Positions 1 to 38,705 of a stretch of 64,000 nt of DNA are shown here, one piece after another. A program made the translations under genes and the position numbers. Every line of letters begins with the position of its first letter. The stretch's first letter is position 1. The notes under the pieces were generated by a model. That model saw only the letters and a list, made by a program, of their open reading frames with translations, had not been told where the DNA came from and searched no databases. Source of the DNA: Polytrichum commune (lineage: Eukaryota > Streptophyta > Polytrichopsida > Polytrichales > Polytrichaceae); NCBI GenBank assembly GCA_950295325.1, contig OX485808.1:26494527-26558526 (forward strand), given 5' to 3'.

Positions 1-466
1 AGCCGGCCCTAATGGCCCTAAGATGAGCATTCCAAATGCCATGGTCTTCTGGTTTTGTGTTAGGCCCACCTCCAAGAGGTGGTGGTTGAAATTAGTCCAA
101 GTGACCATGAAACATGATCCATCCAATGCCAGGCAAGAATCCATGTAGACTTTACATCCATCTTGCATTTACATACTCCATTGGTCCCTCAAGTGTAGTG
201 TGAAGTGAACTTAGACACGGGACCGCCTTTCCACCAATGAGAGTGCCTGAAGTGTACTGGTCACGGGCTCTCAGTCTCATGTGTGAAGTTGCCCTAACAC
301 GAGGGAGTTGGTGAAAACTGTTTGGATAGAATTATAGACCGATTCTTACTCTTCATTCTGCTCAAATTAACTCTGATCGTGGTGCAAGATAAATAGCAAA
401 TCCTAATCGTGCCCGCAATCATTTGTTTTGTAATTTTAGAAGCTTAAATGAATATCTTATTCATTA
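1..466. repeat. Array repeat block P, copy 1
   Basis: This block has no open frame of note. It aligns by eye with 9,462-9,920 and 36,180-36,650, and part of it recurs at about 12,487-12,649. In the other two places the block lies 2.6-4.5 kb downstream of a membrane-protein gene. The window therefore probably starts inside a further array unit whose gene lies upstream. Confidence 0.75.
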
Positions 467-1676
467 AGAAAAGTGTTGGTAGTCCTTTCCACTTCGACGA
501 GGGACTGGATATGATTTCTATATTCATTTCACAAAGTTTTAACCAATAAGGAGGATATATAGGTGCATGATTGCAGAGAAAAGAGGCTCATGATAATTTT
601 GTCTTGAAGTCCAAGAGTGTGTATTCATTAGTGTGTAGGAGCAAGAAACTTGGGTTGAAGAAACTTTACGGACCTTCACTTTTGGACTCAAACTTGAACC
701 CAAGCATGAACTTTAGTGTTGCAAAATGAATGGAAAAATATGGAGTCATGATTGACAAGATTTGGCCCCTATTTCGGGGACTAGTGGTGCCCCATAATCG
801 TTTCTCAGTGGGATTGGGATAGTAGTGTCAATTGCTTGGGTCCAAAACATTATTTTGACCAATAGGATTGCTTGACCTTTGAGTTATCACGGTTTCTTTG
901 TTCTCGAACCCTAATGTAAACCGAACATGAGTCAAGGACATGAGAAAGGGTGAACCATGTAAGTTAATATGGGATCCACCAAACCCCCCACCAAAGAATT
1001 ATTGTGTACTTAAGCATGGGTTTATATTAAGGTCTTGGTCCCAGAGATTCAAGGTCCAAATAACCCCTTCAAGTTGATGAACTTCACTCTTGGACTTTGG
1101 CTTGACGATCAATTTCTCAACCTAGGTGAGGTATTTTCTTGAATTGATGGGAAAGGTTTGGCCCACTAGCACCACTTCAGTGTTCCATACCTTGGACCCA
1201 AACCCTAGTGTCACTTTCGTTGGGTTTATATTTGGATCTTAACCAATAAGAGTGCTCAAATTTGGAGTTTCTTTGATTTTGGACCCTAGTGTGAGTGCAT
1301 CACAAAAAACATTTGTGAGAGCATGACCACATATTATCATTACATGCCTTGCAACCTTTGACCAAGTAGAGTCTTAGCTTCAAATGTTTCTATGTAAAGC
1401 CTTGCGTATTGTGAGACATTAGTTGTGATCATGGGACCCATAGATTTGGAAGCTCACGTAGAGTGAACATGAGGGATATATAATAAACTAATTCCCTCTA
1501 AAATAATGTTACATGGTTTAGCACATTTTTGTGTTAGCGTTAGGTATACAACATGTATGTAAAGAGGCCTTTAGTTAGTGCAATAGACTCCTTGGGTCGA
1601 AGATTGTTTGATACAATAGGAATGTTTGACTTAAGACTATCTTTGGTGGGTGAGTCTAGTGAATCCTAACGTAAAC
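467..1676. repeat. Array repeat block Q, copy 1
   Basis: Non-coding sequence that aligns with 21,190-21,284 plus 22,561-23,665. In the second copy a foldback element interrupts it with a 9-bp duplication. The right part, from about 960, is also related to 10,745-11,370 and 37,500-38,300. No gene is visible. Confidence 0.7.
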
Positions 1677-1680
1677 ACTG

Positions 1681-1688
1681 CACTAAAT
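1681..1688. repeat. Target-site duplication CACTAAAT, left
   Basis: Eight bases repeated exactly at 2,029-2,036, flanking the poly-G MITE. The uninterrupted form of the site is visible in the family member at 14,970. Confidence 0.85.
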
Positions 1689-2552: not shown

Positions 2553-3606
2553 GGGTCTCTCTAAATACCCCCTATGAGCGTTGCACGCGTTAGGGTGGTG
2601 GGTAGGGGCAACACAGAAAAAACCAAAGCCTCGGCCCCCAACCCTTGGCCTACCCCGATCATGGCCTAACCCCCCGACCTTGGCCTAACCCCCCGACCTT
2701 GGCTTGACCCTTGCATTCTTGAAGGCCGCTTGTCCATATAACCCATATTCAGTGCACTTCATTTTCAAGGTCCAAAATCCAATATATATGTTCACTTCCA
2801 TGATTGAGTAAATAAGAAATTGATTAGGATTTCCTTTTCGAAGTGAAACCGTTAATAAAGCATGTAATTAACTTGGAAGTCAAAAACATCACAAAATCCT
2901 CATTAGCACCGAGGTTATAATTTTTGTGACTTACCATTCAAGAGGTCTTTGTCATTCAAAAATGGGACTAGAATTAGTGTTTTATTTGTAGTGTGTTTAT
3001 TTTATAATATTTTAGTTAATACCTTCTACTTTCACAAAGTATTCATACACACTCAAACTAATTAAGTGTGATTAAATGTAATTAAGTCTAATTAAATCAG
3101 AAAGTATGCTTATCAAATTCAATAAGTCTAATCAAATATAAAATGCACTTGATCATGATTTAATGCAGATACGAGGAATGATGTGCTTAAAAACACTTGT
3201 TTAGGCTTCATTACGCTTAATTAGGCTGAATGCAGTTACTTGCACTTAATCAGTTCGAATGTGTATGAACACTTGTAGAAACATAGGCCTTGCGCCGAAT
3301 TACCTTCGAATACAGTTATTTAGACTTAATAACATTTCATCACACTCAATTAGTTTGAGTGTGTATAAATACTTTGTGAACGTAGAAGATATTAACTACA
3401 ATGTTATGAAATGAACATACTTATAACAAAACACTAATTTTAGTCCCATGTTAGAATGACAAAGACTCTTTGAACAGTAAGTCACATAAATTATAACCTC
3501 AATGCTAATGAGGGTTATGCAATGTTTTTGACTTTCAAGTTAATTAAATGCTTTATTGGCGGTTTCACATGACAAAAGAAATCCCAATCAATTGCTTATT
3601 AACTCA

Positions 3607-3986
3607 GAAAGAAAGAGAAAGAAAGAAAGAGAAACTCCGGTCCCTTTTTAGCAAGGGGCCGGCGTGAATAAAGTGTCCGTTCGTAATACCAATGACCCGA
3701 TGCCCCCTGGACAAGGGGACATTGGGACAATACTACTCTCCCCTTTCGAGGATGGACACTATAGTGACACACTATACTAGTTCCTAGCTAGCCACTGGTG
3801 CCTTGAAGATACCGGACATGGTATCCCCCCAAAGGGCTTTGAGGTACCCATACAACAAGGTCCAAGGACCCCCCACCATAGTTGGGTGGACTAAGGTGGT
3901 GAGCACCACGCCGGCATGGGGAATAGAACCCACAACCTCATTGGGGGCCATGAGCCCTAACCACCAAGCCAAGGCCCGTGGTGCCT
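3607..3986 (-). mobile_element. tRNA-derived SINE
   Basis: Read on the minus strand, the element starts near 3,986. It has a box-A-like stretch (complement of 3,954-3,972, TTGGCTTGGTGGTTAGGGC) and a box-B-like GGTTCTATTCC (complement of 3,920-3,930). It ends in a CTTT-rich tail at 3,607-3,636. It is flanked by TTATTAACTCA on both sides (3,596-3,606 and 3,987-3,997). The empty site is seen at about 26,756 in the second array unit, so the insertion came after the duplication. Short translations across it are not real genes. Confidence 0.85.
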
Positions 3987-4165
3987 TTATTAACTCAATT
4001 GAAGTGAACATATATATTAGATTTTGGACCTTGTAAATGAAGTGCACTCAATATAGGTTATATGGACAAGTTGCCTTCAAGAATGCAAGGGTCAGGCCAG
4101 GGTCGGGGGGTTGAGGCTCTGACTTTTCCGGTGTTGCCCCTACCCGCCGCCCTGATGTATGTAAA

Positions 4166-4846
4166 CAATGGTGATTTTTCACAAGGTCCCTAACATGTCC
4201 AGGGACATGTTCATTAAAAAAACATTTCCAGTGGACGGGTTCTTAGAAAATGAACCGGTTTTGGACGTGTCAAATTCACTTTGGATGGGTTTTAAAAATA
4301 ACAATTTGTTTGATAAATTTTCCCCAAAATATAAATGATACAAATATCAATTACATTATGTCATATATGACATGTGAATATAAGCATAATGCAATCAAAC
4401 CACTAATACCCAATCAATATATCAATCTTGAAGTGCTTGATCCACTTGCATACATTAATTCATCAACCACAAAATTTAGAATGGAGTGTATTGGAAAGAT
4501 GAGAATCGACAACAAAAGACAGATAACTGATGAACATTGAAGGCATAATTTGTCAAGATCCTATTGTTTCCAAGTGCAACCAATCACATGTTGACAACTT
4601 TTGGTTTTTTTTTTTTTTTTTTTTTCTAATTTTTCACCAACATTATAAGAGACTTATTTATACCTCTTGCGGAACGGGTATTTTCATTTTCAAACCGGTT
4701 TTAGGACGGGTTGTTTTTTCTTTAACCTTTCTATGCACGGGTTGGTTTAGAAATGATTGGTTTTGGGACGGGTTGCAATTCTTTTTGCCTTTCAATTCAA
4801 GGTTTTTGGACACGGACAGGCAAAAACTTTGTGAAAATCAGCCCTG
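4166..4846. mobile_element. hAT non-autonomous element, copy 1
   Basis: A 681-bp element with ends of the form CAATGGTGATTTTTCACAA and TTGTGAAAATCAGCCCTG. The flanking octamers are TATGTAAA and TGTGTAAC. The orthologous insertion at 29,016-29,695 keeps an exact TGTGTAAC pair, so this is the same event with one decayed duplication. Subterminal GACGGGTT repeats occur near both ends. It lies 35 bp from the right end of foldback element A. There is no transposase. Confidence 0.85.
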
Positions 4847-4881
4847 TGTGTAACACTCGTTGGAGGTATTTAAAGAGACCC

Positions 4882-5585
4882 CATAATTGGGAGGCCAATG
4901 CCCTTTACGAAAACCTAATGGGCAACTAAGGAATCAGGATCATTCTAAGAAAGTCATGCCCACGTTTGCCAGCTTGTCTCGGGGTTGATAGACATCCGTA
5001 GGATGTAGATACGATGGATGGCTGAGATACTCCGCTCTTCCCGCGGCTCCATCGGCTGTTAGTGAAGCTCCATGCTCTTTCTTAAGCGACGGCCTGCAAC
5101 TTCTCCTCAGCCGACCCTCGGATAGCCATAGCCATAGCCATAGCGCGTTCATTTCAGCATAGTGTGTTGCAGGGCATTGAACTGGTGTTGTTGCGTTGGT
5201 GGCGGTGTTGGCGAAGTTGTTCCCTGTAAGCTGGGGGTGGAGATGTTGGGCATCATCGCGTGAAGAAGGATGGCCAAATAGGCTGGGGTTTTAGTTTATA
5301 CCATATTGGCAAGAGCTTGTTGGAAATTCAGTGTGACTAATTCGTTTCTCAACATGCACAGGCGATCTGGCATTAAAGAGCTGTAACTCATGAGTACTCT
5401 CTCGTTCAAGTGAACTAGATCGTGGCTACTACATCTTCTGAACCAGTAGTGTATCTCCGAAGGCAATCGCAAGGCAGCAGTTCAAAGATCAGTCGCACAC
5501 AGATGCTAGTACCACCAGAATTTTGACGAGTGCCAAAGGAAAGAGCAATCTCACTTCGAGGTGAAATAAAGTGGGTGGGATACAA
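4882..5585 (+). promoter_or_regulatory. Upstream region of membrane-protein gene 1
   Basis: About 700 bp between the end of foldback element A and the start codon, strongly matching 29,734-30,419 upstream of gene 2. It contains the stretch CCGTAGGATGTAGATACGAT with a downstream GGCTGAGATACTCC, also found in gene-less relics near 18,290 and 20,875. No TATA box is clear enough to call. Conservation between the copies suggests, but does not prove, a promoter and 5' leader. Confidence 0.45.
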
Positions 5586-6848
5586 ATGAAGGGGGTTTTG
5601 GAATGGTTGCGCAGGTTGCGTTGGTGTGCACGCTTGGATCACCTGACTTTCTCGGCCATAGTGATCAGTTTGTGGTCCGTTGTGTCTGTTGCTCAAACTT
5701 CTGGGATATCTGACTGTGATCAACAGTCCCCTAAGACAAGGGAGTTGGTGACAACTGTTTGGGGCGGTGCTGTCACCATCTTTGTGCTCTCCTTTGATGT
5801 CTGGAGTGCAATGAAGCCATTGGTGGGCGGTGATGGGTCGAGATCAAATAAAGTTATGAACATGGTCATACTCTTCATTATGGGCGTTTTAAATCCGGTT
5901 TATACCCTTTTTGTGACCATAGAAGATGTGGCATGGAGATATCACATGAGGCGGAATATGGCTGGGTTTACAGTTTTGTCCTTGTTGTCACCATGGACGA
6001 AAGATCCTGCAAAGATCGTATGCGGTTGTCAAGTTGTCATCTCTGTGCCTGAAATGATTTGTATTCCTGACGACTTTATTGATTCGAACTTGCCGATCCT
6101 TTCAGAAGCAGTGGTGATTGGTCGTGGACCAGAAGAACCAGGGGAGACCAACAACATTTGCCTCAATGAGAAGGGAAAAGACGTTTTGTTGCAAATGGAT
6201 GTTCTTCCTCCATACGATCAACTCAGGGTCTTGCAAGGAAGTTCTGGGTTGGCTATAATTATATCCGGAGTGCAGAGTGTGGGATATATATATGGTGTTG
6301 TGGTTCGGACTATACAAGGACTCCCGGTGAGTCCAATTGAAGTTATTGCGTTAACGTTGAGCGTACAAATCTTGATCAAGGCTCTCCTACACAATATTGT
6401 AAGTTTATGTTCTAGGCCCCTTCATGTTTATTTGACACATGACCAAGCACAAAATTTAGTAGGTAAGTGCGAAAAATACACTGCACATGGAGTTCCTAAT
6501 AGTAAGGTTGTGGGCCCAATCGTGGTTATGGTCTCGTTGATGTCAAGTGTGGTGATTTATTACATCATACATATGTTGCAAACAACAAGAAGGATCATGG
6601 TTGTCCCAATAATGCTTACACTTGTTGGGTTATATTTAGGACTACCCAACATATGGGTAATTCTATATAGGGATCCAGATATGACTCAAAATATGATTAT
6701 AACTGTTTGCACTATGATAATGTGCGCCATGGTAAATGCAATTTCATATATTCTTGCATTAGTTGTCACAATTAAATATTGGGAGGTTGATAGGTTGAAT
6801 GCGAAAACATCTAGCATGTTAGCTCAAATATTACCATACATTGGTTAA
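5586..6848 (+). CDS. Multi-pass membrane protein of unknown function, array copy 1
   Basis: This is an intronless frame of 420 codons. I start at the first ATG (5,586); the open frame extends 15 bp further upstream only through a GTG. I do not recognise the family. About eight hydrophobic segments are visible, near residues 20-37, 55-72, 91-112, 220-240, 251-270, 309-329, 337-360 and 368-396. The first could be a signal anchor. A soluble stretch at about 160-215 contains acidic residues and Cys192. The protein ends at TTA ATA-rich DNA with no extension. The copy at 30,420-31,682 has the same length and differs at 57 of 420 residues by eye count, mostly around 305-320 and 355-390. Two intact frames at this divergence, inside decayed flanks, suggest selection. 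Substrate and localisation cannot be told from sequence. Confidence 0.75.
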   Translation: MKGVLEWLRRLRWCARLDHLTFSAIVISLWSVVSVAQTSGISDCDQQSPKTRELVTTVWGGAVTIFVLSFDVWSAMKPLVGGDGSRSNKVMNMVILFIMGVLNPVYTLFVTIEDVAWRYHMRRNMAGFTVLSLLSPWTKDPAKIVCGCQVVISVPEMICIPDDFIDSNLPILSEAVVIGRGPEEPGETNNICLNEKGKDVLLQMDVLPPYDQLRVLQGSSGLAIIISGVQSVGYIYGVVVRTIQGLPVSPIEVIALTLSVQILIKALLHNIVSLCSRPLHVYLTHDQAQNLVGKCEKYTAHGVPNSKVVGPIVVMVSLMSSVVIYYIIHMLQTTRRIMVVPIMLTLVGLYLGLPNIWVILYRDPDMTQNMIITVCTMIMCAMVNAISYILALVVTIKYWEVDRLNAKTSSMLAQILPYIG

Positions 6849-8035
6849 TAAAGATATTTTCCATTATGATTTGCACATGTAGTGTCATTTTATTGGAATG
6901 TATTTCATTTCCATTTGTACTAGGCTAGTCACTATAATAACTTTTCTATTTAGAAAAATAATAAGTTAATAGATTGACTAATGTCAAATTATGTACATCA
7001 AATTAGAATTTGATGGTCATTCCAGGTTGGCTTTGATGGTGAATCTTGCCAAAATGTTGTTATTCTAAATTCTCAAAATATATTGAAATAGGTCGGCCCA
7101 AAACTTGGTGTCATTTAATTGGTAGCATAGCCTTTGCACATACAATCTCACCATGACATTGCAACACCTTGATTATATGACGTATTTCCCATCAACCAAA
7201 CTGTTTCGTGTTAATCTAACCCCATATTACAATTATGATGCTTGTAATTTGACATATTTTAGGCTTGATTTGTCATGTTGTAGAGGTGATTAATGTGTAC
7301 AAATGATGTACCCACACTAAGGTAAAGCTATGGGATTGACGGGTTGTTCCGAGTACCACATTAGTTTGATGGTCAGTTAGCTTAACTTAACTCAAGTTAA
7401 TTGTTTCAAATCTTGGTTCCAAAAAAGATGTTGCAATTTTGAGTCTTTGGGTTTGGGTGGATGTTGTAGAGTTTAGGAATTGCAACTATTGAGATCAACC
7501 TCTGGATCCGGGATGCAATGAGCATTGTAATTGAATGACCTGACATGAGGTGAGAGAGATGCAAGTTGCTCATGAGCGTTGTTGCCACCCTTGCCTCCTC
7601 ATGAAGTAGGAAGTGCATTATGTAGTATTTTAGGTTTCAGGTTACGCTAGTGGTGCAACCAACATATTTAAAGTTGACGACTTTGAAAAGAGGTTTTGAT
7701 AATACATCACCTGTGAAGGTTTTGTTTAACTTGGCAGAACCCACATTTGAATCTTGGAATTTTGGAAACATCTGAATATTTTGAATTATGGATTCCTTTG
7801 AATCTTGGAATCTTGGAATTGAAGAATATGTGTAGTTGATAGACAACCTATTAAAGAATATGTGGAATTGGGAGGGGAGTATTGTTGATGCAAAATACAA
7901 CATGGTGTAGTTGATGAATTTGGCATGAGGTAGAGAAAACCCTTTGGATTTAGAGGAACAATGAATGGACGGGAATGATGTGGATGACCAACCAACACCA
8001 ATAGTCTATCTTACTCAACCTCGTGAGTGTGGAGT
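6849..8035. repeat. Downstream flank of gene 1 (array block R)
   Basis: This matches 31,683-33,233 almost base for base, apart from the poly-G MITE inserted in the second copy at the GGTCATTC site (empty here at about 7,017-7,024). Short frames are present but not conserved as proteins. It probably contains the 3' UTR of gene 1. Confidence 0.7.
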
Positions 8036-9461
8036 GTAACATAATCACATTATACACCACAAGGTGTAATTTTGATATACATATTTATTGATAATATCAC
8101 ACTTGGAAGTATGCGATGAGCATCATTTCATTGCGAGTTAGACATTCGGTGCAAGAGGGAGAGCATGCTTGTTAGTATTGCAGAGCATTTTCAAAGGAAG
8201 ACCACCACTTTTCATGCTATTGATTGAAGCCTCAGATTGAGAATAGTGCAAATCAAGGTTTGGTGTTTAGGATTTAACATGTACTAAGAAGATTCTACAT
8301 GAGAAGAGCCATCTTATAGTCATCCTTAAAACTCAAAGGGATTTTTGTCCGGAGTTGGTCCTCTATGATTTCCCATTAGTTGGAATCAATGATTTATTCC
8401 TACCTATGGTGCATTCTTAAGGAAGTGTTCAACTTTGAAAGGTCGACGTATCAAGATTCATTCAAACTCAAACTCAAATTGAGCACCTTTTGGCATGCCA
8501 AAACGAGCTTGACCCACAATGAACCAGTATAGAATGTTCTTCGTGCAAACCTCCACACGACCTCCAACCATGCATCAAGTATGGAAGATGTTGTATGCAA
8601 AACAACCAATTCCCGACCAAAAGCTCCATTGACTTAAAGGATACCTCTATTGAGCAAGGTTCAAGAGAATATCCGAGTCATTGTTTGAAGAGGATTTTGG
8701 GCATAATCAATCAAAGTCCTAGTGTTTTCAAGTCCAACCGGTTACATGTTGTGATCTGTCAGTTTCCTTCATCAATTTGAGGTATATTCTATAGATGCCT
8801 CTAAAATGATCGGTAGTCTTGGACTCCAGCCGGTTATTTCTCAAACTCCACCAATTCACCAGGAACTAGCAGTTGGTTCTCTTCGTTCAGCTATTCAAGT
8901 CGTGCTTTAATAGCAAAAGCCATGTTAGGCTCAAAACATACAAACTCCCAATACATGGTGCCCTTCAGGAGTTGAGAATGCATGAAGTGCAAAGAGACTA
9001 GAACAGTATATGGGGGACTGTTGTTGACCATTGGTACCAGCCTGAAATGATGTCCCATGTGAAATTGCTCCTATTGGCCCTTCAGCAAGAATTGCTAAAT
9101 TGTTACTCTTGAATTGTGTTGTCATGATGTTTTCAATAGCCGTGAGAGCTTGTTCCTGAAATGCTGAACATGTTTAAAATAAAATTGTTACAGATTGGGC
9201 GAAGACAAAGGTCCGTGCACTTTGAATATTGGGGATTCAACCTTTCTTGGCCTAAACATCAATGGGACTCTCAATTTCAAAAGACAACATATTTCTCAGC
9301 CAACATTTTCCCCATTCGTAGCCGCTGATATTGTTTTCCACCTCCGAAAGTTTGTTCATAAATGGTTATCCATTACCCTTTATGAAATGCTCACATCTCA
9401 AGCGACATAGAAACTAGAATCTAAGGGTCGGTTTACACTATGGACCATGTAGTTGTAAATT
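8036..9461. repeat. Array block S, copy 1
   Basis: Aligns with 34,748-36,179, and partly with 11,371-12,480, so the block is present three times. The minus strand of about 8,830-9,080 reads as a protein-like frame but has an in-frame stop here (TAG, complement of 8,888-8,890). The equivalent frame is open at 12,130-12,384 and 35,553-35,792. No product is recognised. Confidence 0.6.
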
Positions 9462-11370
9462 GGCCCTAAGATGGCCCTAAGATGAGTGTTCTGAATGCCA
9501 TGGTCTTCTGGTCCTGTGTTCGACGTACCTCCAAGAAGTGGTTGTTGAAATTAGTCCACGTGACCATGAAACACGATCCATATGATGCCAAGTAGGAATC
9601 CATCTAGACTTTACATCCATCTTGCATTCACATACTCCATTGGTCCCTCAACAGTAGTGTGAAGTGAACTTGGACCGGCTCCGCCTTTCCATCAATGAGA
9701 GTGCCTAAAGTGTACTGGTCACATGATCTCAGTCTCGTGTGTGAAGTTGCCCTAACACGAGGGAGTTGGTGACAACTGTTTGGAAAGAATTGTAGACCGA
9801 TTATTACTCTTCATTCTGCTCAAATTAACTCTGATCGTGGTGCGAGATAAATAGCAAATCCTAATCGTGCCCGCAATCATTTGTCTTGTAATTTTAGAAG
9901 CTTAAATGAATATATATATCTTATTCATTATGAAAGTCGAGATTCTCATAGTCATTAAATGGTCACATAGGCTTTCACAACATTGAGAGATGGAAGAGTC
10001 CCCCCCTATTACACCATAGTGAAAAGCAAAGAATTTTTTAATCTCGAAGCCTAAATCGACACCTTCTTCAACTCATGTTTTAATTATTTCAAATCTTTTT
10101 TTTTGGTCATGCTTTGTAATTGCTAAGTTGCTCGAGCTTCTCATGCTTGAATCCATTGGTTGGATGATTCCACATGATTGTAGGTGTCCACATTAACCTC
10201 ATCTACCTTCGTTTGAGGTAGCCATGTGTTACAACGAGACCCACTTCTCATAGGTTATGAAACATGGAACAAGCTTGAGAAAAGTAGCAAATGCTAATCG
10301 TGCCCACAACCATTTATCTCATAAGTTTAGAAGCTTCTATTAAAATATCATATCCATTGTGAATGTAGGGATTCTCATAGTCATTAATGGTCATATAGCC
10401 CCCCATCTCCAATTATGTTGACTATTGAGCTCATAATTATTGTCAACATATTTTGAGCACATAGTCCTATCCCGTTTCTACATTTTCTTCATTTGGTGTG
10501 AGGGCTGAGATCTACACTCGACCATATTCCAATCAAATTTAGGTGTCTATATTATTGGTATTTTTGGATTTAGGCACTTCCACCTTATATGTCAAGACTC
10601 ATATCAAAAGTTCACACACTTTTTGACAATTTTATCACTTCATAGGCATAATGTTCTTGCAACTTTTTAACATGTTTATCATGACAAGTTTATCATAAAA
10701 GTAAGATGTTTGTGATCATAATAGAGTTATATGATGAATGAAGTAGAGAAAGGGTGAACCATGTAAGTTAATATGGGACCCACCAAACCCCCACCAAGAA
10801 AATATTATACACTTTAGCGTGGGTTTATATCAAGGTCTAGGTCCAAAAGATTTGGGGTCCAAATAACTCCTCGATGAACCTTACTCTTGGACTCCATCTC
10901 GACAACCAATTTCTCAAACTAGGTGACCTAGTTTGTTGAATCGATGGGAAAGGTTTGCCCCAGTAGTGCCACTCTAGTGTTCCATGCCTTGGATCTAAGC
11001 CATAGTGTAAATTCCATTGGGTCTACATTTTGATCTTGACCACTAAGATTGCTCAAATTTGGAGTTTCTTTGATCTGGGACCCTAGTGTGAATGAATCAT
11101 AAAAAAGATTAAAAAAAATCCTAAGAGCATGACCACATGTTATCATTACATGCACCTACAATGGAATAGTGGTGGTTTAGCCGACGAGCTAGACCCATGC
11201 GTTAGGCCTCACCAGTATCGTACCATTGGCAGGGCCCCGAAAGCCCTCCCAACTTTCAAATCTTTTATGAGAAAATCAATACCTCACAAACTTTGACCAA
11301 GTAGAGTCTTAGCTTCAAATGTTTCTATGTAAAGCCTTGTGTATTGTAAGACATTAGTTGTGATCATGGG
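9462..11370. repeat. Array blocks P and T, copy 2
   Basis: Aligns with 36,180-38,115. An internal duplication is visible: a stretch around 9,846-9,972 is repeated in diverged form at about 10,270-10,395. At about 11,150-11,270 both array copies carry an extra segment of about 120 bp that block Q lacks. No gene is visible. Confidence 0.65.
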
Positions 11371-12649
11371 ACCCATATCACACTTGGAAGTATGTGATGA
11401 GCATCATTTCATTGCGAGTTCGACATTCGGTGCAAGAGGGAAAGCATGCTTGTTAGTATTGTAGAGCACTTTCAAAGGAAGACCACCAATTTTCATGCTA
11501 TTGATTCAATCCTCAGATTGAGAATAGTGCAAATCAAGGTTTGGTGTTTAGGATTTAACATGTACTAAGAAAATTCTACATGAGAAGAGCCATCTTCTAG
11601 TCATCCTTAAAACTCAAAGGGATTTTTGTCCGGAGTTGGTCCTCTATGATTTCCCATTAGTTGGAATCAATGATTTATTTCTACCTAGGGTGCATTCTCA
11701 AGGAAGTGTTCAATTTTGAAAGGTCGACCTATCAAGATTCATTCAAACTCAAACTCAATTGAGTAGCTTTTGGCATGCCAAAACGAGTTTGATCCACAAT
11801 GAATGGGTATAAGTTTAGAAATTCTTTGTGCAAACCTCCACACGACCTCCAACCATGCACCAAGTATGGAAGATGTTGTATGCAAAACAACCAATTTCCG
11901 ACCAAAAGCTCCATTGAGTTAAAGGATACCTCTATTGAACAAGGTTCAAGAGAATATCCGAGTCACTGTCTCAAGAGGATTTTGGGCATAATCAGTCAAA
12001 GTCCTAATGTTTCGAGATGCAATCGGGTATATGTTGTGATCTGGCAGTTTCCTTCATGAATTTGAGGTATATTCTATAGATGCCTCTAAAATGATCGGTA
12101 GTCTTCCTGAAGACTTGGACTCCAGCCGGTTATTTCTCAAACTCCACCAATTCACCAGGAACTAGCAGTTGGTTCTCTTCGTTCAGCGATTCAAGTCGTG
12201 CTTTAATAGCAAAAGCCATGTTAGGCTCCAAACATATAAACTCCCAATACCTGGTGCCCTTCAGGAGTTGAGAATGCTTGAAGTGCAAAGAGACTGGAAC
12301 AGTAGATGGGGGACTGTTGTTGACCATTGGTACCGGCCTGAAATGATGTCCCATGTGAAACTCCTCCCATCGGCCCTTCAGCAAGAATCGCTAAATTGCC
12401 ACTCTTCAATTGTGTTGTTATGATGTTCTCAATGGCCTTGAGAGCTTGTTCCTGAAATGCTGACCATGTTTAAAAAGATTTGTTACAGATTGAAACATGA
12501 TCCATCCGATGCCAGGTAGGAATCCATGTAGATTTTATATCCATCTTGCATTCACATACTCCGTTGGTCCCTCAAGCATAGTGTGAAGTGAACTTGGACC
12601 AGCTCCACCAATGAGAGTGCTTGAAGTTTACTGGTTACAGGTTCTCAGG
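11371..12649. repeat. Array block S, third copy, with a partial P block
   Basis: Bases 11,371-12,480 repeat 8,098-9,180, and 12,487-12,649 repeat part of block P. The junction at 11,371 joins S directly to block T. This shows an extra internal duplication in the first array unit that the second unit lacks. An 84-codon minus-strand frame at 12,130-12,384 is open but unrecognised. Confidence 0.65.
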
Positions 12650-14380: not shown

Positions 14381-14965
14381 TTTTTTTAAGTTTATACCCC
14401 TAAATTGACACCTTCCTTAACTCATGTTTCAATGATTTCAAATCCTTTTTTGTTAGCTTCGTAATTGTTAAGTTGCTCAAGCTTCTAATGCTGCTCAAAT
14501 TAACTCCGATTGTGGTCCGAGATAAATAGCAAATCCTAATCGTGCCCGCAATCATTTGTCTCGTAATTTTAGAAGCTTAAATGACTATCTTATTCATTAT
14601 GAAGGTAGAGATTCTCATAGTCATTAAATGGTCATGTAGGCTTTCACAACATTGAACGATGGAAGAGTCCCCCCCTTATAACACCATATTGGAAAGCAAA
14701 GAATTTTTGATGTCGAAGCCAAATTGACACCTTTCTTAACTTATGTTTCAATGATTTCAAATCCTTTTTTGTTCTGCTACTCCCCCCTAAAATATTGTTA
14801 CATGATTTAGCACCTTTTCGTATTGTTGTTACATATACAAGATGTGTGTAAAGCAACCTTTAATAAGTGCAATAGACTTCTTGGGTCGAACATTGTTTGA
14901 CACAATAGGAATGTTTGATGTAAGACTTTCTTTGGTGGGTGAGTCTCGTGGATCCTAATGTAAAC
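14381..14965. repeat. Array block T, partial copy
   Basis: Rearranged fragments of blocks P and T. The stretch at about 14,500-14,640 matches 9,840-9,975, and 14,770-14,965 matches 1,495-1,680 and 38,170-38,365. No gene is visible. Confidence 0.6.
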
Positions 14966-16789: not shown

Positions 16790-16829
16790 TTACTAGTGTA
16801 GAATGGACCTAGTTAGGGCTAGAGTGGCC

Positions 16830-20769: not shown

Positions 20770-20778
20770 CAGTCCCGA

Positions 20779-24893: not shown

Positions 24894-24898
24894 ATGAC

Positions 24899-26775: not shown

Positions 26776-26778
<3 letters not shown>

Positions 26779-26811
<33 letters not shown>
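26779..26811. repeat. (AT)n microsatellite
   Basis: About 16 AT units in the right arm of foldback element B. The same site is only a few units long in elements A and D. Confidence 0.9.
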
Positions 26812-26813
<2 letters not shown>

Positions 26814-26912
26814 AATTTTGGACCTTGAAAATGAAGTGCACTGAATATGGGTTATATGGACAAGTTGCTTTCAGGAATGCAAGGGTCAAGCCAGGGTCGG
26901 GGGTTTGAGGCT

Positions 26913-28963: not shown

Positions 28964-29015
28964 AGGCTCTTACTTTTCCAGTGCTACCCTTGCCCGCCAT
29001 CCTGATGTGTGTAAC

Positions 29016-29695
29016 AAGTGGTGATTTTTCACAAGGTCCCTAACATGTCCAGGGACATGTTCATAAATTTTTTTTTCTAGTGGACGGGTTCTTAGAAAAT
29101 GAATCGGTTTTTGGACGTGTCAAATTCACTTTGGACATGTTCTAAAAATAACAATTTGTTTGATAAAATTTTCCCCAAAAAATAAATAATACAAATATCA
29201 ATTACAGCATGTCATATATGACATGTGAATGTAAGCATAATGCAATCAAACCACTAATACCCAATCAATATATCAATCTTGAAGTGCTTGATTCACTTGC
29301 ATACATTAATTCATCAACCACAAAATTTAGAATGGGGTGTACTGGAAAGATGAGAATCGACAGCAAAAGATAGATAACTGACGAACATTGAAGGCATAAT
29401 TTGTCAAGATCCTATTGTTTCCAAGTGCAACCAGTCACATGTTGACATCTTTCGGTTTTTTTGTTTTTTTTTTCTAATTTTTTACCAACATTATAAGAGA
29501 CTTATTTATACCTCTTGCGGAATGGGTATTTTCATTTTCAAACCGGGTTTGGGACAAGTTGTTTTTTCTTTAACCTTTCCATGGACAGGTTGGTTTGGAA
29601 ATTACCGGTTTTGGGACGAGTTGCAATTTCTTTTGCCTTTCAATTCAAGGTTTTTGGATGTGGACGCGCAAAATCTTTGTGAAAAATCAGCCTTG
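29016..29695. mobile_element. hAT non-autonomous element, copy 3
   Basis: Ortholog of the element at 4,166-4,846. It has an exact 8-bp duplication TGTGTAAC (29,008-29,015 and 29,696-29,703), and its ends are AAGTGGTGATTTTTCAC and GTGAAAAATCAGCCTTG. The insertion predates the array duplication because both units have it at the same place in the foldback arm. Confidence 0.9.
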
Positions 29696-29733
29696 TGTGT
29701 AACACTCGTTGGAGGTATTTATTAGAGAGACCC

Positions 29734-30419
29734 CATAATTGGGAGCCCGATGCCCTTTACGAAAACCTTATGAGCAACTAAGGAATCCGGATCGTACTAA
29801 GAAAGTCATGCCCACGTTTGCCAGCTTGTCTTGGGGTTGATAGTCAGCCGTAGGATGTAGATACGATGGACAGCTGAGATACTCCGCCCCTCCCGTGGCT
29901 CCATCGGCTGTTAGTGAAGCTCCATGCTCTTTCTTAAGCGACGGCCTGCAACTTCTCCTCAGCCGACCCTCAGATAGTGGCAGTGCATTTGTTTCAGCAT
30001 AACTTGTCGCAGGGCATTGAACTCGTGGTGTTGCGTTGGTGGCGGTGTTGGCGAAGTTGTTCCCTGTAAGCTGGGGGTGGAGATGTTGGGCATCATCGCA
30101 TGAAGAAGGATGGCCAAATAGGCTGGGGTTTTAGTTTATACCATATTGGCAAGAGCTTGTTGGAAAATCAGTGTGACTTCGTTTCTCAACACTCACAGGC
30201 GATCTGGCATCAAAGAGCTGTAACCGATGAGTACTCTCTCGTTCAAGTGAACTAGATCGTGGCTACTACATCTTCTGAATCAATAGTGCATGTCCGAAGG
30301 CAAACGCAAGGCAGCAGAAAGATCAGTCGCACATAGATACTAGTACCACCAGAATTTTGACGAGTGCCAAAGGAAAGAGCATTCTCATTTCGAGGTGAAA
30401 TAAAGTGAGTGGGATACAA
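29734..30419 (+). promoter_or_regulatory. Upstream region of membrane-protein gene 2
   Basis: Matches 4,882-5,585 with small indels and contains the same CCGTAGGATGTAGATACGAT stretch. It is likely to contain the promoter and 5' leader, judged only from position and conservation. Confidence 0.45.
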
Positions 30420-31682
30420 ATGAAGGGGGTTTTGGAATGGCTGCGCAGGTTGCGTTGGTGTGCGCGCTTGGATCATCTGACTTTCTCGGCCATAGTGATC
30501 AGTTTGTGGTCCGTTGTGTCTGCTGCTCAAACTTCTGGGATATCTGACTGTGATCAACAGTCCCCTAAGACAAGGGAGTTGGTGACAACTGTTTGGGGCG
30601 GTGCTGTCACCATCTTTGTGCTCTCCGTTGATGTATGGAGTGCAGTGAAGCCATTGGTGGGCGGTGATGGGTCGAGGTCAGATAAAGCTGTGAACATGGT
30701 CGTACTCTTCATTGGGGGCGTTTTAAATCCGGTTTATATCCTTTTTGTGACCATAGAAGATGTGGTGTCGAGATATTGCATGAGGCGGAGAATGCCTGGG
30801 TGTACAGTTCTGTCCTTGTTGTCACCATGGACGAAAGATCCTGCAAAGATCCTATGCGGTTGTCGAGTTGTCATCACTGTGCCTGAAATGATTTGTATTC
30901 CGGACGACTTTATTGATTCGGACTTGCCGATCCTTTCAGAAGCAGTGGTGATTGGTCGTGGACCAGAAGAACGAGTGGAGACCAACAACATTTGCCTCAA
31001 TAATAAGGGAAAAGAAGTTTTGTTGCAAATGGATGTTCTTCCTCCATACGATCAACTCAGGGTCTTGCAAGGAAGTTCTGGGTTGGCTATAATTATATCC
31101 GCAGTGCAGAGTGTGGGATATATATATGGTGTTGTGGTTCGGACTATACAAGGACTCCGAGTGAGTCCTATTGAAGTTGTTGCGTTAACATTGAGCATAC
31201 AAATCTTGATAAAGGCTCTCCTACACAATATTGTAAGTTTATGTTCTAGGCCCCTTCATGTTTATTTGACACATGACCAAGCACAAAATTTAGTAGGTAA
31301 ATGCGAAAAATACGTTGCACATGGAGTTCCTAAGAGTACGGTTGTGGTCGCATTCATGGCTATGGTCTTGTTGGTGACAAGTGTGGTGATTTATTACATC
31401 ATACATATGTGGCAAACAACAAGGATGATCATGGTTGTCCCAATAATGCTAACACTTGTTGGGTTACATTTAGGGCTACCCATCATATGGGTACTTATAT
31501 ATGGGGATCGAGATATGACTCAAAATAAGATTCTAAGTTTGTGCACAACAGCAATGTGCGCCATAGTAAATGCAACATCATATATTTTTGCATTAGTTGT
31601 TACAATTAAATATTGGGAGGTTGATATGTTGAATGCGAAAACTTCTAGCATGTTATCTCAAATATTACCATACATTGGTTAA
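30420..31682 (+). CDS. Multi-pass membrane protein of unknown function, array copy 2
   Basis: An intronless 420-codon frame, with the start taken at ATG 30,420 for the same reason as in copy 1 (only a GTG lies further upstream). It has the same length and about eight hydrophobic segments as copy 1, and is about 86% identical by eye count. Residues 1-34 and the soluble stretch around 200-225 are almost unchanged. The loop and membrane segment at 305-320 and the C-terminal membrane segments have most of the replacements. The stretch SRPLHVYLTHDQAQNLVGKC (residues 276-295) is identical in both and would be a good family signature. It ends at the same codon, and the 3' flank continues to match copy 1. 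Function is unknown. Confidence 0.75.
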   Translation: MKGVLEWLRRLRWCARLDHLTFSAIVISLWSVVSAAQTSGISDCDQQSPKTRELVTTVWGGAVTIFVLSVDVWSAVKPLVGGDGSRSDKAVNMVVLFIGGVLNPVYILFVTIEDVVSRYCMRRRMPGCTVLSLLSPWTKDPAKILCGCRVVITVPEMICIPDDFIDSDLPILSEAVVIGRGPEERVETNNICLNNKGKEVLLQMDVLPPYDQLRVLQGSSGLAIIISAVQSVGYIYGVVVRTIQGLRVSPIEVVALTLSIQILIKALLHNIVSLCSRPLHVYLTHDQAQNLVGKCEKYVAHGVPKSTVVVAFMAMVLLVTSVVIYYIIHMWQTTRMIMVVPIMLTLVGLHLGLPIIWVLIYGDRDMTQNKILSLCTTAMCAIVNATSYIFALVVTIKYWEVDMLNAKTSSMLSQILPYIG

Positions 31683-33233
31683 TAAAAATATTTTCCATTA
31701 TGATTTGCACATGTAGTGTGCTTTTATTGGAATATATTTCATTTCCATTTGTACTAGGCTAGTCACTATAATAACTTTTCTATTTAGAAAAGTAATAAAT
31801 TAATAGATTGACTAATGTCAAATTATATACATCAAATTAGAATTTGATGGTCATTCCTCGGGGGGGGGGGGGGTGGGGGGCAATCATTGGTTGGAGTAGC
31901 AATATACGTGCGAACAAATGATAGGGTATTTTTAAAACTTGGGGGCAAAAAATTATAATTGGACTTAGGAGTAATATAGGGTATCAAAAATGGCATTGGA
32001 CATCTTTAAAGTACTATAGGGTATGGAATAATAGGTAATTTGGAATTATAAGTGATGCAAGCCATTTTTCTATTAACGTAAAGTAGAAAATTATATAATG
32101 ATAGCATGTGAAAAAACGAAGAGAATTGAAAGTAATACCCCCCTATAAAATAGTGGTTGTTTGCACCTATATCCTTAACTTTTTAACACACTGCCCCCCC
32201 CCCCCCCCCCGAGGGTCATTCCAGGTTGGGTTTGATGGTGAATCTTGCAAAAATGTTGTTATTCTAAATTCTCAAAATATATTGTAATAGGTGGGCCCAC
32301 AACTTGGTGTCATTTAATTGGTAGCATACCCTTTGCACATACAATCTCACCATGATATTGCAACACCTTGATTATATGACGTATTTCCCATCAACCAAAT
32401 TGTTTGGTGTTAATCTAACCCCATATTACAATTATGATGCTTGTAATTTGACATATTTTAGGCTTGATTTGTCATGTTGTAGAGGTGATTAATGTGTACA
32501 AATGATGTACCCACACTAAGGTAAGGCTCTGGGATAGACGGGTTGTTCCGAGTACCACATTGGTTTGATGGTCAGTTAGCTTAACTTAACTCAAGTTAAT
32601 TGTTTCAAATCTTGGTTCCAAAAAAAATGTTGCAATTTTGAGTCTTTGGGTTTGGGTGGATGTTGTAAAGTTTAGGAATTGCAACTATTGAGATCAACCT
32701 GTGGATCCGGGATGCAATGAGCATTGTAATTGAAAGACCTGACATGAGGTAAGAGAGATGCAAGTTGCTCATGAGCGTTGTTGCCACCCTTGCCTCCTCA
32801 TGAAGTAGGAAGTGCATTATGTAGTACTATTTTAGGTTTCACGTTACGCTAGTGGTGCAACCAACATATTTAAAGTTGACGACTTTGAAAAGAGGTCTTT
32901 TGATAATACATCACCTTTGAAGGTTTTGTTTAACTTGGCATAACCCACATTTGAATCTTGGAATTTTGGAAACATCTAAATATTTCGAAGCATGGATTCC
33001 TTTGAATCTTTGAATCTTGGAAGTGAAGAATATGTGTAGTTGATAGACAACCTATTAAAGAATATGTGGAATTGGGAGGGGAGTATTGTTGATGCAAAAT
33101 ACAACATGGTGTAGTTGATGAATTTGGCATGAGGTAGAGAAAATCCTTTGGATTTAGAGGAACAATGAATGGACGGGAATGATGTGGATGACCAACAAAC
33201 ACCAATAGTCTATCTTACTCAACCTCGTGAGTG
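31683..33233. repeat. Downstream flank of gene 2 (array block R)
   Basis: Second copy of 6,849-8,035, with the poly-G MITE inserted at 31,857. No additional gene is visible. Homology with the first unit stops at 33,233 and resumes at 34,748. Confidence 0.7.
31857..32213. mobile_element. Poly-G-ended MITE, copy 2 (hAT-like)
   Basis: A 357-bp element starting CTCG plus a G run and ending in a C run plus GAG. It has an exact 8-bp duplication GGTCATTC (31,849-31,856 and 32,214-32,221). The empty site is preserved in array copy 1 near 7,017. Its sequence is the reverse complement of the element at 1,689-2,028. It inserted after the array duplicated. Confidence 0.92.
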
Positions 33234-34747
33234 TGCCCAATTACTATCAAGTATTTGCAATGGGGCATTCATTGGAAATAACAATTGTAGATGTGATGAG
33301 CATGTATTCTATTACTGATAAATTAATCATGACGTCAAATTCCAACATCAAAAAGCATTATCATATTACTATAGATTCTTACTTTCGTAGTGTGATATGA
33401 TGAAGACATCATCATGGGAGCATAATATTTTTAACTCCATATTGAGTGACATTGGAAGCATATTCCTTTAATAAAAATGTTCTTTCATACTTCGGTATCT
33501 TCATTGTGTATACCAAGTCATATTTTAAATAAGAATAGGCCATTCTGGTGAGAAAACTTCATACTACGACATTTGAGATTAAATTGTCATATTCTTGAGA
33601 ATATGGCATACATTTGATACAATACTTTCTTGCACGACCAAACATGTCATCTCAAAGAAGTAGAACAATAGTCCAGTCATTTTCCAACCTTGTCAAAGAA
33701 TTTCTCGCTTATACCCTAAGTAATCGAAGTATCCTAACTGACCTTATAGTCTTCTCTCTACCAAATTAAGTTTCTAATTTTTCTATGACGGTTAGATTAC
33801 TACATTCTATTGGTCACGTGAGTAGTACATTGGCTAGTATTGCAAGTACCAATATCTATCTTTGGAAGGTTATTGGTTGCGGTCCCTATACTAGCTTGCC
33901 ACCGGTCTAACTATACTATCAATATTCTCGTGTATTTCCTTATACATTACGACTATCGGTCGGCTAGCCCTTTCCTCACCTATTAAGTCTTTTGGTTACC
34001 CATAACCCATGAGAATACCTAACTAGGTAATCCCAACTTCAAGTACTGGTAGCCCTTTCCTACTATTACTAATACCATCCCTATTACCAGAAGCTAGTTT
34101 TCGCATTGACCACTTATCACCTAGGAATCCCAATTCTCCAAATGTGTCAGTACCTATGTCTAGAATTTGGTGCTACCGCCTACCATTAACATATAAACAT
34201 GCTACTCTCTACCCCCATTTGTATTCCAAACCCCTATTCTTGTGGACACACACTTTGTTAGCAACATTGATATTGTAGCTAGCATAAAATCCATGATATG
34301 GCCAACTCCACATAATTATCAGCACACCGCTACCAATGACTGCGTAATCCTTAATTCAATATACACCCACACTCACAGTAAGGGTTTCCAACAACATTCT
34401 CACTCCTTTATTCGAAATGGTCACCACACACAAGAATTCCATAACAATTGATCACATTTGACATTGTTCAATCTATGCTTAAATACTTGCTTTCTACTTT
34501 TATTTAAACTTCTTACTTTTAGTCTTAACCACACCTCTAATAGGGGTTCTTCTTCGTTTGATGAATTTTACTTTCATGGTTAATTCCCAAAATGTAACTT
34601 CTACGAACCATTACGAAACACTTTGTTTTTTTCTACTTAGTTCGTAGATCCACACTTAACCACTCAAGTAAAGGTGTCGAAATTTTTCTTATTTATTATG
34701 TTTCACATTACGCTTCTACCCACAAAAATTTTATGTAAGAAAAATGA
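33234..34747. other. 1.5-kb segment present only in the second array unit
   Basis: In the first unit GAGTGTG at about 8,031 joins directly to GAGTGTAAC. Here 1,514 bp lie between. I find no TG...CA ends, no terminal inverted repeats, no clear duplication and no recognisable frame. It may be an insertion of unknown type or sequence deleted from the first unit. Confidence 0.5.
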
Positions 34748-36179
34748 ATGGAGTGTAACATAATCACATTATACACCACAAGGTATAATTTTGATATACA
34801 TATTTATTGATAATATCACACTTGGAAGTATGCAATGAGCACCATTTCATTGCGAGTTAGACATTCGGTGCAAGAGGGAAAGCATGCTTGTTAGTGTTGC
34901 AGAGCATTTTCAAAGGAAGACCACCACTTTTCATGCTATTGATTGAAGCCTCAGATTGAGAATAGTGCAAATCACGGTTTGGTGTTTAGGATTTAACATG
35001 TACTAAGAAGATTCTACATGAGAAGAGCCATCTTATAGTCATCCTTAAAACTCAAAGGGATTTTTGTCCGGAGTTGGTCCTCTATGATTTCCCATTAGTT
35101 GGAATCAATGATTTATTCCTACCTAGGGTGCATTCTCAAGGAAGTGTTCAACTTTGAAAGGTCGACGTATCAAGATTCATTCAAACTCAAACTCAAATTG
35201 AGCACCTTTTGGCATGCCAAAACGAGCTTGACCCACAATGAACCAGTATAGAATGTTCTTCGTGCAAACCTCCACACGACCTCCAACCATGCATCAAGTA
35301 TGGAAGATGTTGTATGCAAAACAACCAATTCCCGACCAAAAGCTCCATTGACTTAAAGGATACCTCTATTGAGCAAGGTTCAAGAGAATATCCGAGTCAT
35401 TGTTTGAAGAGGATTTTGGGCATAATCAATCAAAGTCCTAGTGTTTTCAAGTCCAACCGGTTACATGTTGTGATCTGTCAGTTTCCTTCATCAATTTGAG
35501 GTATATTCTATAGATGCCTCTAAAATGATCGGTAGTCTTGGACTCCAGCCGGTTATTTCTCAAACTCCACCAGTTCACCAGGAACTAGCAGTTCGTTCTC
35601 TTCGTTTAGCGATTCAAGTCGTGCTTTAATAGCAAAAGCCATGTTAGGCTCAAAACATACAAACTCCCAATACATGGTGCCCTTCAGGAGTTGAGAATGC
35701 ATGAAGTGGAAAGAGACTGGAACAATATATGGGGGACTGTTGTTGACCATTGGTACCAGCCTGAAATGATGTCCCATGTGAAATTGCTCCAATTAGCCCT
35801 TCAGCAAGAATTGCTAAATTGCGAGTCTTCAATTGTGTTGTCATGATGTTTTCTATAGCCGTGAGAGCTTGTTCCTGAAATGCTGAACACGTTTAAAATA
35901 AAATTGTTATAGATTGGGGGAAGACAAAGGTCCGTGCACTTTGAATATTGGGGATTCAACCTTTCTTGGCCTAAACATCAATGGGACTCTCAATTTCAAA
36001 AGACAACATATTTCTCAGCCAACATTTTCCCCATTCGTTGCCGTTGATATTGTTTACCACCTCTGAAAGCTTGTTCATAAATGGTTATCCATTACCCTTT
36101 ATGAAATGCTCACATCTCAAGCGACATAGAAACTAGAATCTAAGGGTCGGTTTATACTATGGACCATGAAGTTGTAAAT
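34748..36179. repeat. Array block S, copy in unit 2
   Basis: Very close match to 8,036-9,461. The minus-strand frame 35,553-35,792 (79 codons) is open and matches the frame at 12,130-12,384. I do not recognise it. Confidence 0.65.
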
Positions 36180-38363
36180 TGGCCCTAAGATGGCCCTAAG
36201 ATGAGCGTTCCGAATGCCATGGTCTTTTGGTCTTGTGTTAGACGTACCTCCAAGAAGTGGTTGTTGAAATTAGTCCACGTGACCACGAAACACGATCCAT
36301 CTGATGCCAAGTAGGAATCCATGTAGACTTTACATCCATCTTGCATTCACATACTCCATTTGTCCCTCAACCGTAGTGTGAAGTGAACTTGGACCGGCTC
36401 CGCCTTTCCATCAATGAGAGTGCCTGAAGTGTACTGGTCACGGGATCTCAGTCTCGTGTGTGAAGTTGCCCTAACACGAGGGAGTTGGTGACAACTGTTT
36501 GGATAGAATTATAGACTGATTCTTACTCTTCATTCTGCTCAAATTAACTCTGATAGTGGTGCGAGATAAATAGAAAATCCTAATCGTGCCCGCAATCATT
36601 TGTCTTGTAATTTTAGAAGCTTAAATGAATATATATATATATATATATATCTTATTCATTATGAAAGTCGAGATTCTCATAGTCATTAAATGGTCATATA
36701 GGCTTTCACAACATTGAGAGATAGAAGAGTCCCCCCTATAACACCATAGTGGAAAGCAAAGAATTTTTTTATTTCGAAGCCTAAATCGACACCTTCTTCA
36801 ACTCATGTTTTAATTATTTCAAATCTTTTTTTGTCATGCTTTGTAATTGCTAAGTTGCTCGAGCTTCTAATGCTTGAATCCATTGGTTAGATGATTCCAC
36901 ATGATTGTAGGTGTCCACATTAACCTCATCTACCTTCGTTTCAGGTAGCCATGTGTTACAACGATACCCACTTCTCATAGGATATGAAACACATAACAAG
37001 TTTGAGATAAGTAGCAAATGCTAATCGTGCCCACAACCATTTATCTCATAAGTTTAGAAGCTTCTATTAAAATATTGTATCCATTGTGAAAGTAGGGATT
37101 CTCATAGTCATTAATGGTCATATAGCCCCTCCCCATCTCCAATTATGTTCACTATTGAACTCATAATTGTCAACATATTTTGAGCACATAGTCCTATCCC
37201 ATTTCTACATTTTCTTCATTTGGTCTGAGGGCTTAGATCTACACTCGACCATAGTCCAATCAAATATAGGTGTCTATATCATTGCTATTTTTGGATTTAG
37301 GCACTTCCACCTTATATGTCAAGACTCGTATCAAAATTTCACCCACTTTTTGACAATTTTATCACTTCATAGGCATAATGTTCCTACAACTTTCTAACAT
37401 TCTATAGTATTTGTAATTTGGACATATCATGACAAGTTTATCATAAAAGTAAGATGTTTGTGATCATAATAGAGTTATATGATGAATTAAGTAGAGAAAG
37501 GGTGAACCATGTAAGTTAATATGGGACCCACCAAACCCCCACCAAGAAAATATTATACACTTTAGCGTGGGTTTATATTAAGGTCTAGGTCCTAGAGATT
37601 TGAGGTCCAAATAACTCCTTGATGAATCTTACTCTTGGACTCCATCTCGACAACCAAATTCTCAAACTAGGTGACCTAGTTTCTTGAATCGATGGGAAAG
37701 GTTTGCCCCAGTAGTGCCACTCTAGTGTTCTATGCCTTGGATCCAAGCCATAGTGTAAATTCCATTGGGTTTACATTTTGATCTTGACCACTAAGATTGC
37801 TCAAATTTGGAGTTTCTTTGATCTGGGACCCTAGTGTGAATGGATCATAAAAAAAAATTAAAAAAATCCTAAGAGCATGACCACATGTTATCATTACATG
37901 CGCCTACAATGGAATAGTGGTGGTTTAGCCGACGAGCTAGACCCATGCGTTAGGCCTCACCGCTATCGTACCATTGGCAAGGCCCAAAAAGCCCTCCCAA
38001 CTTTCAAATCTTTTATGAGAAAATCAATACCTCACAAACTTTGACCAAGTAGAGTCTTAGCTTCAAATGTTTCTATGTAAAAGCCTTGTGTATTGTAAGA
38101 CATTAGTTGTGATCATGGGACCCATAGTTTTTGAAGCTCATATAGAGTGAACACGAGGGATATATAATAAAGTACTCCCTCCTAAAATAATGTTACATGA
38201 TTTAACACCCTTTTGTATTATTCTTACACATACAATGGGTGTGTAAAGAAGCCTTTAGCTAGTGCAATAGACTCCTTGGGTTGACATTTATTTGACACAA
38301 TAGGAATGGTTGACGTAGGACTACCTTTGGTGGGTGAGTCTAGTGGATCCTAACGTAAACACT
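36180..38363. repeat. Array blocks P and T, unit 2
   Basis: Matches 9,462-11,370, then continues with sequence resembling 1,430-1,676. An (AT)n run at about 36,629-36,650 is longer than in the first unit. No gene is visible. Confidence 0.65.
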
Positions 38364-38705
38364 ATAGTAAATATGATATTTAGTGTCACCAATTCTAATT
38401 GTCTTGGTCCATACTAATTGTAAAGCGCGGTATAGTGTCACCAACACTAAATGGTAACCCAACATTGACTGTCATTCTTGGTAAATTTATGGGGGATTGA
38501 AGATTGACTGCATTGCAATTACGTACTGTCACTTACCAAGTGATTTTCCATCCAAATTTCAATCTTCCATGACATTATTTCATCACAAGTTGCTGACGTG
38601 AGAAGACAGGGTTTTGGCCATTGGATGAAGTCATCCATCATCCATGACAATATTTCGTCACCTATTCACAATAAGTGTCATTTGAAAAGTTACTATACTG
38701 ATATA
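38364..38705. mobile_element. ACTACACTAAAT-family MITE, right end lost
   Basis: The left terminus reads ACTATAGTAAATATGATATT. The body matches 14,990-15,320 and breaks off in ATAAAATACCATTATG before the right terminus. This is also where homology with the array ends. Confidence 0.6.

Follow-up and report, generated by a model that had tools for sequence, protein, structure and literature searches.

Two paralogous genes in repeated units

The window, by which we mean the whole 64,000-bp stretch of Polytrichum commune DNA analysed here (C6:26,494,527-26,558,526, in a searched genome of 408 Mb and 64 contigs), carries two paralogous genes for predicted membrane proteins within repeated units (Table 1). 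Gene 1 and gene 2 are intact open reading frames (ORFs) of 420 codons each with a common start and stop; they differ at 57 of 420 residues, as a preliminary description of this DNA had stated, and at 85 of 1263 bases. Self-comparison of the window also bore out the block order that had been proposed for both units: Y, foldback, upstream region, gene, 3' flank with the S repeat, and P/T. The Y blocks are 88.8% identical, the foldback regions (2041-3606 and 25194-26765) 88.4%, the upstream regions with their genes (4114-7023 and 28964-31857) 92.2%, two pieces of the 3' flank 96.6% (7012-8031 and 32211-33235) and 95.5% (8030-11377 and 34749-38126, containing the S repeat), and the P/T blocks 88.2%.

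The surroundings of the genes had been described as decayed. This holds for indels and insertions, but not for substitutions: the substitution divergence (K) between the units is 0.074 over the upstream region and gene (4114-7023) versus 0.030 (7012-8031) and 0.033 (8030-11377) in the 3' flank. The gene is thus more substituted than its own 3' flank, and it is the reading frame that it preserves. The step in divergence near position 7000 suggests that the 3' flank was exchanged more recently.

The window starts in a block that normally lies 3' of a gene (5-471 matches 9462-9935), and the further copy predicted upstream of position 1 is real, since an intact gene was found at C6:26486812-26488077 (window -7714 to -6449, 6.4-7.7 kb before position 1). 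Two gene-less relics of the upstream block had been described between the units. One was found, with matches at 19585-19886 and 20605-21011, and a second was absent at E 1e-3; apart from it the search gave foldback relics (18636-19361 and 21316-22526) and, around 25728-25808, fragments some 40 bp long.

A hAT element had been placed inside the foldback. The 379-bp insert found there (3607-3985) has a GAAA-rich end, a repeated 11-bp TTATTAACTCA at its edges and an end resembling a tRNA A-box, and by the usual criteria it looks like a short interspersed element (SINE) rather than a hAT; no search was made for another hAT piece. Scans of the window with Rfam at gathering scores and for tRNAs were empty.

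Table 1. Features of the window and of the gene array on C6.
Feature	Window position	Strand	Genome position or remark
Gene 1, single-exon, multi-pass membrane protein by hydropathy	5586..6848	+	C6:26500112-26501374
Gene 2, 420-codon paralogue, 86% protein identity	30420..31682	+	C6:26524946-26526208
HV1 of gene 1 (aa 75-113)	5808..5924	+	
HV2 of gene 1 (aa 355-378)	6648..6719	+	alignment caveat
HV1 of gene 2 (aa 75-113)	30642..30758	+	
HV2 of gene 2 (aa 355-378)	31482..31553	+	
Upstream block, gene 1	4114..5585	+	from ~4960 common to the intact copies compared, including those on C1, C3 and C5
Upstream block, gene 2	28964..30419	+	
Foldback element, unit 1	2683..4117	.	a dispersed repeat present as two inverted arms of ~413 bp; insert 3607-3985 splits the right arm
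Foldback element, unit 2	25839..26911	.	
3' flank, gene 1	6849..11377	+	includes S repeat (9462-9935)
3' flank, gene 2	31683..38126	+	two inserts: 31858-32210 (9-bp target duplication) and ~33236-34748
Additional copy of 3'-flank block 8094-9197	11375..12492	+	92.3% identity
P/T block, unit 1	14778..15316	+	
P/T block, unit 2	38173..38714	+	
Y block, unit 1	557..1688	+	
Y block, unit 2	22561..23684	+	
Relic of gene-upstream block without gene	19585..21011	+	
S block of preceding unit	5..471	+	gene of that unit intact, before position 1
34-bp gene fragment (~codons 48-59) in S block	9750..9783; also 292-325 and 36469-36502	+	
Array copies on C6		+	26,469,174 (one TAA); 26,486,812 (intact); gene 1; gene 2; 26,570,468 (one TAA); 26,580,472 (intact)

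A gene family with intact and broken copies

The two genes had been taken for an orphan pair, which they are not. A whole-genome protein search gave 24 matches, all 24 of which were scored, resolving to 18 loci; this is a lower bound (masked stretches, missed matches), so that the family has at least 18 related loci. Six copies lie within about 112 kb in the array that includes the window (C6 26.469-26.582 Mb), all on the + strand, and a stop codon interrupts two. A second cluster on C6 (23.72-23.94 Mb) has five loci, one broken, and a third (31.31-31.34 Mb) two, one frameshifted, bringing C6 to 13 of the 18. Single loci lie on C1 (4.33 Mb), C5 (10.12 Mb), C3 (50.06 Mb) and C2 (6.21 Mb, broken), and C1 also holds, at 44.99 Mb, an outlying paralogue with 28-31% identity. 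A search with this outlier returned the same 17 ingroup loci and one weak match (E 4.87).

Twelve of the 17 ingroup loci are intact and five broken (13 intact frames counting the outlier). Protein identity among the 12 is 61-86%, so the copies diverge and are not homogenised. Duplicates both in tandem and dispersed, pseudogenes among the copies and divergence of the copies were all found, and they support the earlier proposal of a birth-and-death gene array, of which the window would hold the middle.

Next to the S repeat, the S blocks of four units hold a 34-bp piece of the gene (9750-9783, 292-325, 36469-36502 and C6:26476137). Its 23-base core, allowing up to two mismatches, matched the genome 20 times, in 16 gene copies and the four S blocks; the backwards control gave none.

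The predicted protein

The protein begins with a signal-peptide-like stretch (aa 1-37), followed by about seven hydropathy peaks (near residues 63, 103, 231, 259, 321, 345 and 387); a further, weaker peak spans aa 149-157. With the frame kept, changes among the copies are concentrated in the variable segments HV1 (aa 75-113) and HV2 (aa 355-378) and in a patch at aa 149-195. Kept even in the C1 outlier are TRELxxxxWGG, a VLPxYxQLxxLQGxSGxA...Q..GYIxG core (with F in place of S in the locus L013) and TIKxW.

None of the 13 members reached a Pfam cut-off, whether for a seven-transmembrane (7TM) family (nearest, 7TMR-DISM_7TM at 15.7 bits versus 29, in L011 only), for diagnostic domains of nucleotide-binding leucine-rich-repeat (NLR), receptor-kinase or major histocompatibility complex (MHC) type, or for a transposase or related domain. 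A TVHS-like match in L013 (E 0.00017, 21.8 bits versus a cut-off of 27, over 28 residues) was set aside as chance. No PDB sequence matched at E <= 1, and NCBIfam gave weak matches alone (best E 0.023, in one of 13 members). In a search for relatives in other genomes, 40 stretches of prokaryote genome contigs matched a pattern and none was confirmed; in viral contigs ten matched and none was confirmed; plasmids, queried with the C1 outlier alone, gave none.

Surviving copies are driven apart

Between gene 1 and gene 2, dN is 0.069 and dS 0.076, a dN/dS of 0.90. The preliminary description had named a ratio near 1 as grounds for rejecting its reading, and taken literally the pair's value is such a ratio; the family-wide data nonetheless show the 0.90 to be an average over constrained stretches and segments in which dN exceeds dS, and evolution of the family is not neutral. 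By segment the pair's ratio is 0.10 at aa 1-60 and 1.69 at aa 301-360.

We measured selection across the 12 intact ingroup genes (66 pairs). The dN/dS ratio by the Nei-Gojobori method (NG86) exceeded 1 in 57 of the 66 pairs (median 1.18, range 0.87-2.00). Mean dS equalled the mean K of the 5' flank (both 0.153), and mean dN was 0.178, with dN above 5'-flank K in 52 pairs. Codon maximum likelihood under model M0 gave a whole-gene omega of 1.55 (log-likelihood -7146.49 with our own codon model and -7146.59 with IQ-TREE). Model M2a assigned 16% of codons an omega of 7.3, 25% an omega of 0.08 and 59% an omega of 1, and its gain over M1a, as twice the log-likelihood difference (2dlnL), was 405. The gain was 180.3 when gapped columns and their neighbours were dropped (334 codons) and 97.1 when HV1 and HV2 were dropped as well (300 codons), whereas five simulations under the M1a null, with omega up to 1, gave 0.00-0.87. 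When the gene was divided into blocks with their own trees, four of five were significant (48.6, 91.7, 20.7 and 166.6), the N-terminal block not being so (2.9); the block at aa 130-205, with 91.7, lies mostly outside the gapped parts save for insertions in L011 and L017.

Some bins of 20 residues have an NG86 ratio of about 0.4-0.65; those at aa 241-260 (0.36) and aa 41-60 (0.56) look constrained. Under M2a, 48 residues of gene 1 had a posterior above 0.9, nine of them in aa 77-92, seven in the second transmembrane segment (TM2), 11 in aa 113-220 and 10 in aa 358-372; by hand-drawn boundaries none of the 48 falls in the signal peptide, TM3, TM4, TM5 or the tail. These data indicate that the family is not neutral and that selection on it is diversifying, not simply a matter of genes conserved while the rest decays.

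A probable recognition or defence family

We consider it probable, judging from sequence, that the genes form a birth-and-death family of signal-peptide proteins with about seven transmembrane segments, under diversifying selection that probably stems from a conflict over recognition or defence. Sequence comparison indicates that copies of a single-exon gene arise by duplication, both tandem and segmental, that some ectopic exchange takes part (L003 is a mosaic, agreeing with L004 over aa 3-288 and with L001 beyond), that stop codons or frameshifts kill some copies, and that diversifying selection drives the survivors apart. With a topology that comes from hydropathy, and a pattern of change that was observed directly, the protein would sit in the membrane, where its variable segments may touch a fast-changing partner or evade it. 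Our first guess for this partner would be a pathogen- or symbiont-derived molecule, and our second a partner in reproduction or self-recognition. An unchanging job such as transport, channel activity or signalling may fall to the conserved core and the C-terminal tail.

Several points weigh against this interpretation. One is the pair's ratio of 0.90 itself. Another is that copies exchange some sequence, which can inflate site tests: an exchange scan of the coding region gave p < 1e-4 in nine of 2184 triplets, the child always being L003 or L004, with a smallest possible p (5e-5) that lies above the Bonferroni level of 2.3e-5; and when only the 12 intact copies were scanned, p < 0.005 was reached by 21 of 1320 triplets, versus 1, 4, 4 and 4 of 1320 in four exchange-free simulations, the best exchange z of 6.6 being hardly above the highest of the simulated best values (3.9-6.3). 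Numerical warnings arose during the per-block fits that gave 2.9, 48.6, 91.7 and 20.7, and the site posteriors are empirical Bayes values at point estimates, not Bayes empirical Bayes. Many hot sites in HV2 may reflect misalignment or an old segment, since aa 361-380, a part of HV2, has an NG86 ratio of 0.74 and a proportion of synonymous differences (pS) of 0.56; we also count the pS of 0.33 at aa 81-100 as contrary. Hydropathy would place HV1 on the cytosolic side, an awkward position if the protein is a receptor that looks outward, and an AlphaFold2 model of the two window proteins was unusable (pLDDT, the predicted local distance difference test, 33.9; pTM, the predicted template modelling score, 0.18).

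Diversifying arrays known in plants are mostly of NLR and receptor-like genes. Like these and MHC genes, the present family has tandem clusters in which intact copies stand beside stop-bearing ones, dN above dS in defined segments and some exchange between copies. Unlike them, it has no NBS, LRR (the nucleotide-binding site and leucine-rich repeat), kinase or immunoglobulin-type domain, and its signal-peptide-like multi-pass proteins match no Pfam family at cut-off. MLO-type 7TM plant proteins are alike in having about seven hydrophobic segments; they differ in that no Pfam 7TM family reaches cut-off in the window family. A large unnamed fungal family of multi-pass membrane proteins may have a similar ungapped core, R-x2-Q-G-L-P-[IV]-[ST]-x2-E, between membrane segments, a likeness that we take as a lead. 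A literature text search with one 14-letter peptide returned no paper, and nothing on such a family or on transferred fungal genes stood among the matches listed. Plants are reported to have acquired a microbial gene (PMC12454661), which would give a fungal origin some precedent.

On a bolder and distinctly tentative view, the family would represent plant recognition proteins of a kind not described before: 7TM proteins with a signal peptide, possibly acquired from fungi, that in a bryophyte became a hypervariable receptor or susceptibility target and diversify by birth and death, with a whole-gene omega above 1. A multi-pass family with such an omega in a bryophyte-grade plant would indicate an unstudied conflict partner and would give a concrete set of residues for testing. 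The family also illustrates how a dN/dS near 1 between two genes can conceal strong diversifying selection.

Diversification might instead be driven by reproductive or self/non-self recognition, as in gametes or mating compatibility. The selection signature would be the same and 13 of the 18 loci lie on the single contig C6, but expansion of copy number is more usual for defence genes, and we hold this explanation possible without favouring it. Somewhat more doubtful is a family of transporters or channels that adapts to a range of substrates or escapes a toxin. The seven or so hydrophobic segments and the conserved core would fit such a family; the hot sites lie mainly in loops and TM2 and not in that core, no transporter profile reached a Pfam cut-off, and the NCBIfam matches are weak.

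Relaxed constraint, in which young redundant duplicates drift towards pseudogenes and a ratio near 1 means no more than that, is unlikely and already disfavoured. It would account for the pair's ratio, for the five broken loci among 17 and for the nine of 66 pairs at or below 1. Neutral drift does not, however, yield an omega well above 1 such as the 1.55 and the M2a gain found here; mean dN lies above both dS and flank K, the simulations with omega up to 1 failed to reproduce the signal, and the bins at aa 241-260 and 41-60 look constrained.

How the copies spread

Copies in the array have whole or partial units in common. L006 and L009 are alignable over the full ~4.28 kb compared, and L032 (C1) and L033 (C5) to 9586 of 10,000 and 8917 of 9,000. 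Alignments to the window unit stop at 8029-8031 for L006, L008, L009, L012, L018, L032, L033 and L034, and other copies have flanks in common past this point. A foldback-arm repeat stands upstream of the gene block in the seven loci L006, L008, L009, L017, L020, L032 and L033 among those compared, and the C1 and C5 copies show no detectable upstream likeness before ~3600 of L032, near the foldback arm. The arm is a dispersed repeat in its own right; of the 3273 first-look candidates for it, 40 were scored. We read these patterns as probable segmental duplication with differing break points rather than transposition. A mobile element might instead carry the gene as an accessory ORF, transposition giving its number and dispersal; this would fit the copies on C1, C2, C3 and C5, the arm repeat upstream in seven loci, the shared alignment ends and the C1-C5 break near the arm, but is very improbable given that the 3' end varies among other copies (the L006/L009 and L032/L033 alignments run on), that at least 18 gene copies face those 3273 arm candidates, and that the ORF has no transposase domain at Pfam cut-off.

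Other elements and duplications

Two short elements, at 31858-32210 and 1689-2024, are 93% identical, inverted relative to each other and bounded by G-runs. A target duplication of 9 bp (GGTCATTCC) flanks the first and one of 8 bp (CACTAAAT) the second; by the usual criteria both are presumably Mutator-like elements (MULE-like). At 40927-41634 (-) lies a Pogo/Tc5-type transposase fragment (Pfam DDE_1, E 2e-11; HTH_Tnp_Tc5, E 1e-4), and a 396-aa ORF at 50794-51984 (+), with no Pfam match at cut-off, overlaps internal repeats at 51340-51722.

Elsewhere in the genome, contig C8 (146,561 bp) carries an open rbcL, tRNA-Arg(CCG) and a presumed accD in this order, and none of 42 EF-Tu matches falls on it, which would fit a land plant below the flowering plants, probably of bryophyte grade. 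Two EF-Tu-like genes with identical scores lie about 72 kb apart on C7 (251156-252881, +, and 324862-326591, -), which suggests a recent inverted duplication. At C6:13897398-14092101, four elongation-factor-like copies score almost alike and are split evenly between the strands, apparently another inverted duplication.

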